Shown: positions 21,901 to 24,817 of the stretch, piece by piece | How positions within the stretch are numbered: position 1 is the stretch's first letter | How the letters are laid out: every line of letters starts with the position of its first letter | NCBI GenBank assembly: GCA_903900975.1 | Contig: CAIUPE010000030.1 | Location: forward strand, 1 to 48,395 | Source of the DNA: an uncultured Hyphomicrobiales bacterium | Lineage (GTDB): Bacteria; Pseudomonadota; Alphaproteobacteria; Rhizobiales; Beijerinckiaceae | Reading direction: 5' to 3' | Length of the DNA stretch: 48,395 nt | Translations under genes and position numbers: made by a program | Notes under the pieces: model-generated | Told to the model about the DNA's origin: nothing | The model's database searches: none | What the model saw: the letters and a program-made list of their open reading frames with translations, nothing else

Positions 21901-22576
21901 GGTCAATGATATGATTGCCAATGGACTACTGGCTAAGCCGCTTGTGTTGGCCGACGTTCAAGCGCCCCTAACCGGTTCGAACGGGGTGGTTCGGATCGGG
22001 CCGGTCGAAGCCCATTCCGGTGGGGCACAAATTCAATCGGGACTGACGTTTGATGTGCGCAGTTTAAAACTTGATGGTCGCGCCAGCCTTGTTTCCGATG
22101 ACGCACCGAAAGATTGGGTTGGGCCTCAACCGCAGGCCAACGTTGCTTTCAAGGGCGTTATCGGTGGCGCTACCAGCCGCGAAGTGGATGCGTCGACCTT
22201 AGCCAATATCCTCACAACACGTCTCGTATCGCGCGAACTCGCCCACCTTGAAGCTCAGGAGACCGACCTGCGTGAGCGGGCATCCTTGGCCCGACATTTG
22301 AAACAGGATCGCGAACGGGCCGAAGAGGCGCGCCTGGCCGAGGAGGCACGCAAGGCCGAAGAGGCTCGCTTGGCCGATGAAGCACGCAAGCATGCCGAGG
22401 CGGATGCTGCCGCGAAAAAAGTGTTGGATGCGTCAGAAAATCAAAAAATAATTGACGATCTCAACGCACAGAAACTAAGCGTGGAGGGGGATCAGAAAAG
22501 CAAAGAGAAAGAGGTTCTCGATGCGGTCGATCAGCTGCTCAAAGGAAACGCTACCGTTCAACTGCCGCCGCCTTAA
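18929..22576 (+). CDS. AsmA-like inner-membrane-anchored periplasmic protein
   Basis: A very large protein (about 1215 residues from the GTG at 18929). An N-terminal hydrophobic segment, FLTGLAILIIGVLVTALIAP, anchors it in the inner membrane; the body consists of repeated beta-rich stretches typical of AsmA/TamB-like proteins, with AsmA N-terminal features (QTMGQPVAIAGSIDIRLLP) and an AsmA C-terminal-like region with VTFDGGGSGESLATFAASLSG (partly quoted). Such proteins are thought to move phospholipids or affect outer-membrane assembly. The C-terminus ends in a charged EEARLAEEARKAEEARLADEA helix and a Pro tail. A TTG at 18875 gives a longer version but lacks a ribosome site. Divergent from the thioesterase gene. 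Confidence 0.82.
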   Translation: MREFLTGLAILIIGVLVTALIAPFVVDFNAQRPRIEEALSQTMGQPVAIAGSIDIRLLPFPVVDLRKVTIGTPPNGSSAFAERISLDIATMPMLKGEVHVMEAVLDQPVVTLAVSTDGIVSGLWPKDGEPTGTLISIEKFTVHDGKIALRPQGSDRPIALSKLQLEGSAVSLQGPWRVDGQGEFDNKPVGLRLSTGTADETGMFRIKATMDHPDGGFKADVDGLASLVTRLTFDGKLSIAGELPWPELGTLGKQPWSLSTLAKLDGNALDVTAAEINAGSDETGFKLNGSGSGLLGGGRSLEVLFDAKQLDLDRPLHIDGKPNPALPAVLTAWRGVLLASDDDLRPSFPVNLTVTVDSVIAGGDTIRGLRLDTKLDSDGVTLKRGVAQLPGNAKLTAAGEIGLSEGGAFSGHASFSSKEFGRFGAWIDGVLSGRSMRYGEAHDVSAEADLALSSTLVGASNLKINLDQSSITGLLRYELPDEGQRGRLDAQLASDGFDLDQLPEASLLAARFGAIDASVVINARNVRAARMKDAHAGRLQMKATASEEGLVIDTLEINDIGGANVKASGRLTAAGDRVEALIDARDVGPIAVLLRKIAPGPASTLLAERAKLLGPANFKVTAERRADKARTIALAVEGNAATTSLSGQGNLTSVDADISLDATFKTSSPDASLLLRQIGFSVLPLPLDGGGSITTQLKGSLNKGFVFALKGEVAGTIIKADLGLDPAASTASGPVAFSSPDVEPLLQALALPVLDPSAKIPVNVSGKLDWSTAKLALSALAMTSGTHQLSGHLAYEPQAGTLNGELATEAVSLPELASFVLGPLSGSGPNGLWPSSRFSTPGPPPVDVDIRVTAKQFDTGFGADVTSAKMELAWMPDSLEIRNFEGDALKGHLAGTLAVRRNSGLGSYLGKFTWNGLSIADLLPKSGMSGTADVTFDGGGSGESLATFAASLSGGGTLHTRDLVVPGFDVSALGAATKALDNERDPPDSHRVNDMIANGLLAKPLVLADVQAPLTGSNGVVRIGPVEAHSGGAQIQSGLTFDVRSLKLDGRASLVSDDAPKDWVGPQPQANVAFKGVIGGATSREVDASTLANILTTRLVSRELAHLEAQETDLRERASLARHLKQDRERAEEARLAEEARKAEEARLADEARKHAEADAAAKKVLDASENQKIIDDLNAQKLSVEGDQKSKEKEVLDAVDQLLKGNATVQLPPP

Positions 22577-22815
22577 AGGTCCAAGCGGGATTCATACGCG
22601 CTTAATATGGCCAGCCGAATCGCCGAGGAGAGATTGCGTGAGCCTCGGCCGGCATCGATGACCCCGATTTCAGCATTTACGCTGCGTTTATTTGCTTGCG
22701 CCAGTCGTTTGAGTGCCAACCAGAATTCAGGTTCCAACGACACACTGGTGCGATGCCCTGCGACCAGCACCGAATGTTTGACCAGACCTATTTGATTGGC
22801 CAAATCCGATGTCAT
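22573..22815 (-). CDS. Ribbon-helix-helix (RHH_4-like) protein
   Basis: An 80-residue protein whose core HRTSVSLEPEFWLALKRLAQ and LSSAIRLAILSAYESRL are strand and helices of a ribbon-helix-helix DNA-binding fold of the kind found across rhizobia. Targets are unknown. It overlaps the DUF4169 gene by 4 bp (ATGA) and closes the sspB-DUF4169-RHH operon; its stop overlaps by a few bases the end of the convergent AsmA-like gene. Confidence 0.8.
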   Translation of the reverse strand: MTSDLANQIGLVKHSVLVAGHRTSVSLEPEFWLALKRLAQANKRSVNAEIGVIDAGRGSRNLSSAIRLAILSAYESRLDL

Positions 22816-23009
22816 TCCGGCTCCTGCTCCGGGGGCGGTGGTAGCAATGCCCCGTCGACAATTCGCGCGATCTGATCTTTTCGAGCTTTTTCGGCCAACT
22901 TTTCGGCTTTGGTGCGACCGAAGGAAATCCGGTGCTCCATTGCCAATTTATCAGCCTTTTTCCGCTCAAGGGCTTTTTTGGCGCGGCGAAATTGAATGAT
23001 TTCAGCCAT
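22812..23009 (-). CDS. DUF4169 small basic protein
   Basis: A 65-residue, strongly charged protein: MAEIIQFRRAKKALERKKAD followed by RISFGRTKAEKLAEKARKD, matching the DUF4169 family of alphaproteobacteria. Nearly all of it should be one helix; the tail is LLPPPPEQEPE. No function is established. I start at the ATG at 23009 because the family begins MAEIIQFR; the frame is open further upstream inside sspB in another phase. It follows sspB by 10 bp and overlaps the RHH gene by 4 bp. Confidence 0.82.
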   Translation of the reverse strand: MAEIIQFRRAKKALERKKADKLAMEHRISFGRTKAEKLAEKARKDQIARIVDGALLPPPPEQEPE

Positions 23010-23019
23010 CGGCGCGCTA

Positions 23020-23535
23020 TCAGGGCTTTTTTCGAAAGGCGCTGAGGCTAACGATTTCGGCCCCGCCTTCGCTGTCTTTGCGAGGGGTTTCGGACGCATC
23101 AAGGATCCGCTCCAGAAGGTGGGGATCTTCCATATCAGCCGACATGTCGTCTGGCGTGTCGTTATCAGCCGACTCGACACCCGCGAGCTCAAATTTAAGG
23201 CCGAAATCGACAGATGGATCCCAAAAACCGGACATTGTATCGAACGGAACAACCAGTTTTTCCGGAATTCCGCCAAACGACAGGCCTACTTCTAGCCCGC
23301 TATCGGTGACGGTTAAATCCCAAAACTGGTGCTGTAACACGATGGTCATCTCTTCCGGATGCCGCTCGAGCAGGCGGTTGGAAATCTGCACGCCCGGCGC
23401 CCGGGTGCGGAACGAGATGAAGAAATGATGTTCGCCCGGCAGGCCATGCTGGGAGGCTTCCACCAGCACGCGGCGGACAACGCCGCGCAAGGCTTCCTGG
23501 ACCAGAAGGTCGTAACGGATGATATCTTCTGGCAT
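23020..23535 (-). CDS. sspB: ClpXP adaptor SspB (alphaproteobacterial type)
   Basis: A 171-residue protein. The N-terminal folded domain starts DIIRYDLLVQEALRGVVRRV and contains GEHHFFISFRT and the FGGIPEKLVVPFDTMSGFWDPS strand region (partly quoted), as in SspB-alpha, which binds the ssrA tag. A long acidic linker (ESADNDTPDDMSADMEDP) leads to the C-terminal AEIVSLSAFRKK peptide that docks on ClpX. The ATG at 23535 follows AGGATAG. The ssrA gene lies directly upstream on the same strand with its terminator between, so tag and adaptor are physically adjacent. Confidence 0.93.
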   Translation of the reverse strand: MPEDIIRYDLLVQEALRGVVRRVLVEASQHGLPGEHHFFISFRTRAPGVQISNRLLERHPEEMTIVLQHQFWDLTVTDSGLEVGLSFGGIPEKLVVPFDTMSGFWDPSVDFGLKFELAGVESADNDTPDDMSADMEDPHLLERILDASETPRKDSEGGAEIVSLSAFRKKP

Positions 23536-23550
23536 CGAACGCTATCCTAC

Positions 23551-23592
23551 CAACAAAAAATAAAGTGGAGGCTTCTGTTGCCAGGCGCCTCC
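23551..23592 (-). terminator. Intrinsic terminator of ssrA
   Basis: On the minus strand GGAGGC (23587-23592) pairs with GCCTCC (23567-23572), followed by ACTTTATTTTTTG. The T-run ends about 15 bp before the sspB start codon, so sspB either has its own promoter within ssrA or depends on readthrough. Confidence 0.75.
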
Positions 23593-23886
23593 GGGCCCCG
23601 CCTTACGCTGCTAGGCGCAAGGGCTTTGATTTCGGTACCAGCGCCGCATTACGCAGCGAGAGCCACCGGAGCATAGTTGTCATTGGCAACTATAAATAAG
23701 CCCGATAACGGCGGAACCATACCGGAAGAAAGATCACCCTTTACACCCTCGTCGATCCTATTTCGCCCCCGCCGAAGCGCATGGCAAAACCGTGCCATGC
23801 GTTTGGGTGGAGGCGCCGGGTACCGCCCCCGGGTCCGAAAAGCTTATTTCGATGCTCGTTTATCTTCATAGCCGCCTTGCGACGGC
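23551..23886 (-). ncRNA. ssrA: Two-piece (circularly permuted) tmRNA
   Basis: Read on the minus strand, the acceptor piece comes first: T-stem CCGGG/CCCGG around loop GGCGGTA, then the acceptor strand CGCCTCC and ACC, ending near 23806. An intervening segment with a GCATGGCA/TGCCATGC hairpin (23779-23800) follows, then the coding piece opens with GGGGGCG at 23770, which pairs with CGCCTCC. Its reading frame (23649-23687) encodes ANDNYAPVALAA and a TAA stop. This order is that of the permuted alphaproteobacterial tmRNA gene, cut into two RNAs after transcription. It rescues stalled ribosomes and tags the product for ClpXP. The 5' boundary near 23886 is set by a TATATT box at 23894-23899 and is approximate. 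Confidence 0.93.
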
Positions 23887-24022
23887 ACACTGAATATAGG
23901 GTGTTGTGAGGCTAAACGGAAGGGCATAATCGACTGGGGACAAACCTATCCCCGATAAGCCATTTAGAGTGCCGCTTTTGGGGCGTAAGCGGTAGAGTAC
24001 GAGCTTACTAAGGATTCGGTGT

Positions 24023-24817
24023 ATGAAAGCCTATCACGACCTGCTGCAAAGAGTGTTGACCGAGGGCGTCGTTAAGACCGACCGGACGGGGACGGGCACG
24101 CGATCGGTCTTCGGCCATCAGATGCGGTTTGATCTCGCCAAGGGGTTTCCGCTGGTAACGACCAAAAAACTGCATTTGCGCTCGATTATCCACGAGCTGC
24201 TATGGTTTATCGCGGGCGAAACAAATATCGATTATTTGCGCAAAAACGCCGTCACCATTTGGGACGAGTGGGCCGATGAGGGCGGTGAGCTTGGCCCTGT
24301 TTACGGCAAGCAATGGCGCTCATGGGCAACGCCCGATGGTGGGACGGTCGATCAAATCCAATGGGTGATCAACGAGATTAAGCGTAATCCCGATTCACGT
24401 CGCCTTGTGGTATCGGCTTGGAATCCGGCCGATTTGGAAAAAATGGCGCTGCCGCCGTGCCATTGCCTCTTTCAATTTTACGTCGCGGACGGGCGGCTTT
24501 CCTGCCAGCTCTATCAACGCTCGGCGGATATCTTTTTGGGCGTGCCGTTCAATATCGCGAGTTACGCGCTGCTGACCCATATGATGGCGCAGGTAACAGG
24601 CCTAAAGACGGGTGATTTTGTGCATACGTTCGGTGATGCGCATATCTATTCGAACCATTTAGAGCAGACGGAATTGCTGCTCTCACGCGCAACGCGGCCT
24701 TTGCCGGTGTTGAAGCTTAATCCTGAGGTCAAGTCGCTGTTTGATTTTACCTTCGAAGATATTGTGATCGAGGGCTATGATCCGCATCCGGCTATTAAAG
24801 CGGCGGTGGCGGTATGA
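24023..24817 (+). CDS. thyA: Thymidylate synthase
   Basis: A 264-residue ThyA, the same length as the E. coli enzyme. The nucleophile Cys146 is in [12 protein letters not shown]; the folate/dUMP residues appear in [32 protein letters not shown] and HIYSNHLEQ. It methylates dUMP to dTMP and turns methylene-tetrahydrofolate into dihydrofolate. The ATG follows AAGGATTC. It overlaps the GNAT gene by 4 bp, and folA, which recycles the dihydrofolate, comes third in the operon. Confidence 0.98.

Follow-up and report, generated by a model that had tools for sequence, protein, structure and literature searches.

Does a two-piece tmRNA gene that stands directly before the gene of a proteolytic adaptor share its transcription with that gene? 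The question is raised by a locus in a contig of 48,395 nucleotides (CAIUPE010000030.1, positions 1 to 48,395, assembly GCA_903900975.1) from an uncultured Hyphomicrobiales bacterium of the Beijerinckiaceae; the whole of this stretch is called the window below. A sequence-only reading had placed here a permuted ssrA gene, ending in a terminator ahead of sspB, and had proposed coupled expression of the two genes, for instance by read-through of the terminator or from a promoter inside the tmRNA gene. The features of the locus are collected in Table 1.

The ssrA gene is of the permuted two-piece type. The Rfam search yields a match to the alpha_tmRNA model RF01849 at 23925–23564 of the minus strand, covering the full model (positions 1–355) with 302.5 bits (gathering score 50, E = 2e-87), and a second match to the permuted tmRNA model RF04321 at 23867–23649 of the same strand. 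ARAGORN also calls a tmRNA on this strand, with the tag ANDNYAPVALAA, the frame ending in AA and a stop codon. Both the gene type and the tag proposed earlier are hence recovered, whereas the upper limit of 23886 is too low, as the RF01849 match reaches 23925 and includes the apparent promoter. The 2.9 Mb genome (153 contigs) has a single ssrA match. The encoded 3' end of the acceptor piece (23804–23810) reads CCUCCACCC, against the family consensus CCUCCACCA in the RF01849 alignment; since the piece ends in CCC instead of CCA, its final A may need to be added post-transcriptionally.

Table 1. Features of the ssrA–sspB locus, in coordinates of the window
Feature	Coordinates	Strand	Basis
ssrA, permuted two-piece alphaproteobacterial tmRNA gene	23564..23925	-	Rfam extent; ARAGORN 23558-23900
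Acceptor piece, first in the gene, approximate ends	23804..23890	-	inferred from the RF01849 alignment
Coding piece, carrying the tag frame; 5' end approximately at GGGGGCGAAA	23564..23770	-	inferred from the RF01849 alignment
Tag reading frame ANDNYAPVALAA and stop	23649..23687	-	ARAGORN and sequence
CTTCCG, -35-like element of the putative ssrA promoter, 17 nt before the -10	23917..23922	-	sequence; inside the 5' part of RF01849
CTATAT, -10 element of the putative ssrA promoter	23894..23899	-	sequence
Conserved 3' stem of tmRNA, GGAGGC...CAACAGAA...GCCTCC	23567..23592	-	similar stem in tandem and non-tandem loci
U-tract TTTATTTTTT following the stem; may act as a terminator, perhaps a leaky one	23555..23564	-	sequence; not conserved across loci
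AGGA, Shine-Dalgarno-like, 9 nt before the sspB ATG	23545..23548	-	sequence
sspB, predicted ClpXP adaptor for ssrA-tagged proteins, 171 aa	23020..23535	-	PF04386, 153.4 bits
Small DUF4169 protein (65 aa), encoded by the next co-directional gene	22812..23009	-	PF13770, 44.7 bits on a longer ORF enclosing it
ORF of 80 aa that overlaps the stop codon of the DUF4169 gene; may close the run	22573..22815	-	ORF reading
thyA, divergent neighbour of ssrA	24023..24817	+	PF00303, 423 bits; NF002497, 486 bits

The 171-codon reading frame at 23535–23020 of the minus strand encodes SspB: it matches PF04386 at positions 2–155 of 156, the score of 153.4 bits (E = 6.5e-45) being far above the gathering score of 27. 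It starts 28 nt after the Rfam end of ssrA, in agreement with the claim that the tmRNA gene lies directly upstream. The nearest named SspB proteins, three in number and 91–92% identical, come from Hyphomicrobiales MAGs, and in the SspB tree the protein of the window stands beside an Alsobacter MAG. From the family match, it is predicted to bind both the tag and ClpX. The alphaproteobacterial form of SspB is reportedly the subject of work by Lessner et al. (2007) on Caulobacter. Binding of the ssrA tag by SspB leads to higher affinity to ClpX, as stated in an excerpt of PMC3985003, and the SsrA/SspB pathway feeds ClpXP in Caulobacter according to an excerpt of PMC8119881. On the plus strand, the run starting at 24023 consists of thyA, a GNAT gene and a dihydrofolate reductase gene. 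Elsewhere in the window, a cobalamin riboswitch (RF00174, 7223–7438, minus strand, 121.8 bits) lies upstream of what by eye resembles a run of cobalt/cobalamin genes.

We then call a pair tandem if sspB lies less than 1 kb downstream of ssrA on the same strand. Among 150 genomes of the window's order, tmRNA was found in 143 and SspB in 145, with one weak match (G094:C116, 20.9 bits, under the cut-off) left out, and the pair is tandem in 124 of the 143 genomes with both genes. The other 19 comprise ten in which the genes share a contig and nine in which they lie on different contigs; in at least one of the latter, G003, ssrA is at a contig end. At the level of the class, tmRNA matches were found in 176 and SspB in 168 of 190 genomes, and the pair is tandem in 98 of 130 genomes, among the matches listed for both genes; the 32 non-tandem genomes, again among the matches listed, have the two genes on one contig in 20 cases and on different contigs in 12. 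Three genomes (G000, G042, G082) belong to both surveys, and many genomes in both are MAGs. Out of 80 named loci found via SspB, 60 are tandem by ARAGORN, M. aminovorans (L121), M. rhodinum (L158) and X. autotrophicus (L134) among them, and seven have ssrA 1.1–2.4 kb upstream. ARAGORN shows no ssrA in the other 13, seven of which have less than 500 nt of upstream sequence and six at least 500 nt; five of the seven short ones (L090, L092, L114, L129, L155) nevertheless carry the tmRNA end motif shortly before sspB.

Chance adjacency cannot account for such a frequency in genomes of thousands of genes. The ssrA–sspB pair thus shows the same strand, adjacency and conserved order of an operon, and the recurrence of this order in most sampled genomes of the class suggests joint expression. 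The non-tandem genomes (19/143 in the order and 32/130 in the class, the latter among the matches listed) count against a common unit. In the open-access literature we found no description of the ssrA–sspB adjacency; Lessner 2007 or Chien 2007 may mention the order.

Several contigs end in or near ssrA (L084, L090, L092, L114, L129, L148, L155; G003, G011, G037), which may reflect strain variation or insertions at the tmRNA gene. Mobile islands were considered as the cause of separated pairs and set aside. The 20 intervening stretches (19 from non-tandem genomes of both surveys and one from a long-gap tandem genome, G135) hold varied ORFs on both strands, as judged by eye. Further copies of the tmRNA end motif, CAACAGAA or CAACAAAA, follow the tmRNA gene in four of these 20 (L287, L290–L292) and are possible remnants of integration at ssrA. 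One genome of the window's family has a strongly divergent tmRNA (G117:C1:163819–164146, 114.6 bits) about 105 kb from sspB, on the other strand.

Positions 1–39 of RF01849 resemble the ssrA promoter more than they do a transcribed RNA. This was assessed in 79 tandem loci, that is, 19 of 21 loci chosen by the tmRNA score (L009 and L012, with sspB about 3 kb away, were left out) and 60 loci picked mainly from the short-gap end of both surveys. A strict -10 motif stands at the 5' end of ssrA in 69 of the 79, and the full -35/-10 pair in 39; a CTTT-type block occupies the -35 position in most of them, as seen by eye. The shuffles used for this 5'-end scan kept base composition only, and those for the interior and GANTC scans described below kept dinucleotides.

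On balance we lean towards the reading in which the ssrA promoter drives a single transcription unit of ssrA and sspB, the latter expressed by read-through. RNA polymerase would use the promoter CTTCCG-17-CTATAT (23922–23894) and produce a permuted pre-tmRNA. Pre-tmRNAs of the permuted class are processed into two stable tmRNA pieces, and most of the transcripts would share this fate. A minority would pass the 3' stem and the U-tract and carry sspB, and perhaps the two small genes behind it. The supply of the adaptor, at a lower level, would then be tied to that of the tag RNA; if so, this would explain how adaptor and tag are kept in proportion across a large bacterial class, and the coupling may be of benefit. 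Read-through is favoured by the conserved order, the ssrA promoter motif, the shortage of internal consensus promoters, the lack of a U-tract in 50 of the 79 tandem loci and, in a minority of genomes, the short spacer.

One point against the read-through unit lies in the stretch between the genes: the strong U-tract of the window could stop most transcripts. It has 9 T in 10 positions and ends 19 nt before the sspB ATG, not about 15 bp as had been proposed for the terminator. The stem before it (arms GGAGGC, 23592–23587, and GCCTCC, 23572–23567) has, by eye, 6 bp and a loop of 14 nt; it is not called by the consensus terminator scan, which excludes loops longer than 8, and folding of a 69-nt stretch prefers another pairing, no better than in shuffles (z = -0.46). 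Near relatives have T-rich but varied versions of the U-tract. With the rule of at least 5 T in 8, and with L174 left out, as its contig ends 22 nt after ssrA, a U-tract follows the stem in 29 of 79 tandem and 15 of 39 non-tandem loci, and 50 of the 79 tandem loci have none. Hence it is neither a class-wide terminator nor an element specifically lost before sspB. The equal frequencies led us to reject a lost terminator as a signature of linkage, and they count against the read-through unit, since linkage has not visibly removed the terminator. The terminator assumed in the sequence-only reading is thus retained in part: the U-tract of the window is strong, but the stem is a conserved part of tmRNA and the tract is missing in most relatives examined. 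The simplest reading would be a stop that leaks in the window's group and is often absent elsewhere. An antiterminator, formed by pairing of the U-tract with the CAACAGAA loop, was also considered and attributed to chance, given the same z of -0.46 and the different downstream letters in the nearest relatives, L082 and L083.

If termination is of little consequence, the level of sspB may be set by processing. The long transcript would be cleaved directly behind the tmRNA stem, at an AU-rich site of the RNase E type for instance, and the U-tract would matter little. RNase E prefers AU-rich sites. Such a cut overlaps with the read-through unit and is compatible with it; as the explanation of sspB expression we consider it unlikely, if not strongly so. 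It agrees with the large share of tandem loci that have no U-tract by the rule, and the third base after the stem is A in 41% of the tandem loci versus 15% of the non-tandem ones; however, this enrichment is confounded by descent, and the U-tract frequency is the same in both sets. A premature tmRNA form, reported as unstable, was mapped in S. meliloti alongside the two stable pieces, according to an excerpt of PMC2873474, which also fits processing.

The other route, a promoter of sspB itself, was addressed by scanning the tmRNA interior and the spacer, a stretch that begins 60 nt past the Rfam start and reaches roughly to the start of sspB. A strict -10 motif was found there in 4 of the 79 loci, with 11.0 expected from the shuffles, and a full -35/-10 pair in 3, with 16.1 expected. 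For the last 120 nt and the spacer, the -10 motif is seen in 3 loci (3.3 expected) and the full pair in 3 (6.0 expected), hence no clear signal either way, and this near-expectation count is a point against the read-through unit. In the window, the strict sigma-70 consensus scan of 22550–24150 called no promoter; it misses the ssrA promoter too, so its silence alone means little.

The length of the spacer bears on the same question. In 60 loci with start codons assigned by rule, the gap from the tmRNA end to the start codon is 8–99 nt (median 43.5) and at most 40 nt in 28, these values being biased low by a selection that favoured short gaps. In the tandem genomes of the surveys, the tmRNA end and the SspB domain are a median 110 nt apart in the class (among the matches listed) and 142 nt apart in the order; in most measured loci, some 30 nt of the gene precede the domain. 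The medians thus correspond to roughly 80–110 nt to the start codon and leave room for a promoter in most tandem genomes, another point against the read-through unit. Distances of 75 nt or less, that is, about 45 nt or less to the start codon, are seen in 30 of 98 tandem genomes of the class (among the matches listed) and in 10 of 124 of the order. Hence a minority of tandem genomes, the window included, have a spacer too short to hold a separate promoter.

We therefore regard as improbable the alternative in which sspB has its own promoter in ssrA or the spacer, the ssrA transcript ends at the U-tract, and the position of the promoter keeps the genes adjacent. The good U-tract of the window and the roomy gaps in most tandem genomes speak for it, promoters that deviate from the sigma-70 consensus would escape the scans, and only the first 80 nt of the spacer were scanned in the 19 score-chosen loci. 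But with the looser rules the interior and spacer fall below the shuffles, and in genomes where the gap is small, 8 nt at the least, the promoter would need to lie within tmRNA sequence that is under constraint. Of the two routes to coupled expression proposed initially, read-through is consequently the favoured one, and the internal promoter the less probable one. Coupling itself gains from the conserved order and from consensus promoter signals that are at or below the shuffled level; co-transcription is what we infer from them.

It could also be that the order arose by accident in an ancestor and has persisted because rearrangement is slow, sspB being transcribed independently and with no functional coupling. 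Synteny can persist by descent, and several groups have a separated pair, for instance the Brucella, Ochrobactrum and Falsochrobactrum records (L130, L137, L147, L160) with about 2.4 kb between the genes. S. meliloti may be one more exception: the excerpt of PMC2573895 lists its ssrA between SMc01449 and SMc01450, and neither of these names shows sspB. Moreover, a thymidylate synthase gene of either type also often stays beside ssrA, so some of the conservation may be that of the locus as a whole. We examined the neighbours in 40 tandem loci outside the order (37 families), a set chosen as tandem, so that the comparison covers the neighbours and not the frequency of the pair. We regard this explanation as improbable too: the window's other neighbours are mostly gone there, with ThyA upstream in 7/40 and DUF4169 downstream in 0/40 (sought within about 1.5 kb of sspB with a 65-aa query of limited reach), while sspB is still downstream on the same strand, at 1–17 kb, in 14 of the 32 exceptions in the class, among the matches listed.

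The thymidylate synthase genes form a pattern of their own. ThyX, a thymidylate synthase unrelated to ThyA, is the largest upstream neighbour family (PF02511, 189 bits) in the 40 class-level tandem loci outside the order (L202–L241): within 2.5 kb upstream of ssrA, ThyX is found in 20 and ThyA in 8, that is, in 28 of the 40 together. In 26 of these 28 the gene is divergent from ssrA, and in 24 it lies within 150 nt of the ssrA match. Non-tandem ssrA loci (L242–L277) have a thymidylate synthase in 17 of 36 cases, ThyA in 11 and ThyX in 6. Within the order only ThyA was seen, in 10 of 19 loci within 1.5 kb and in 58 of the 80 named loci within up to 3 kb before sspB. The SspB tree (47 rows, 35 labelled) has at least eight changes of the ThyA/ThyX label; it is poorly resolved, and its well-supported branches force two, so ThyA and ThyX seem to have replaced each other at this position on at least two occasions. 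No description of thyA or thyX beside ssrA was found in the open-access literature.

In the window, a GANTC site, the CcrM methylation motif, is situated at 24013–24017, 5 nt before thyA. Such sites are present in 14 of 18 thyA–ssrA intergenic stretches, with 4.6 expected and a maximum of 10 in 300 shuffles, and in 10 of the 14 stretches they lie 5–21 nt before the thyA start. For the thyX–ssrA stretches the count is 9 of 20, with 4.8 expected. It is possible that thyA is under cell-cycle control via these sites. Deletion of ssrA in Caulobacter delays dnaA transcription and DNA replication, as described in an excerpt of PMC8119881, and the shared thy–ssrA intergenic region is thus a place to look for such control. 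We advance, as a tentative and rather doubtful synthesis, a class-wide tmRNA–adaptor operon, co-dosed by read-through from one conserved promoter, with a divergent ThyA or ThyX gene swapped in place more than once, which would hint at a selected link between dTMP supply, trans-translation and the cell cycle. In any case, thymidylate synthase, tmRNA and adaptor make up a recurrent three-part locus.

The RNA itself has no essential difference from the alphaproteobacterial two-piece tmRNA (RF01849), known from Caulobacter (Keiler et al. 2000, as cited in the excerpt of PMC3985003): the permuted gene, the tag frame and the full-length model match are common to both, the acceptor end being CCC here and CCA in the model. 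Likewise, the adaptor has in common with the Caulobacter form of SspB (PF04386) the family match over nearly the whole domain. In E. coli, sspB sits with sspA, whereas in the window it is directly behind ssrA. The E. coli neighbour of ssrA is smpB. A co-transcript of rnr and smpB is reported for S. pneumoniae (PMC3534368). The smpB–ssrA and rnr–smpB pairs are like that of the window in that genes of the same quality-control pathway stand side by side, but here the leading gene encodes an RNA and its partner is a protease adaptor.
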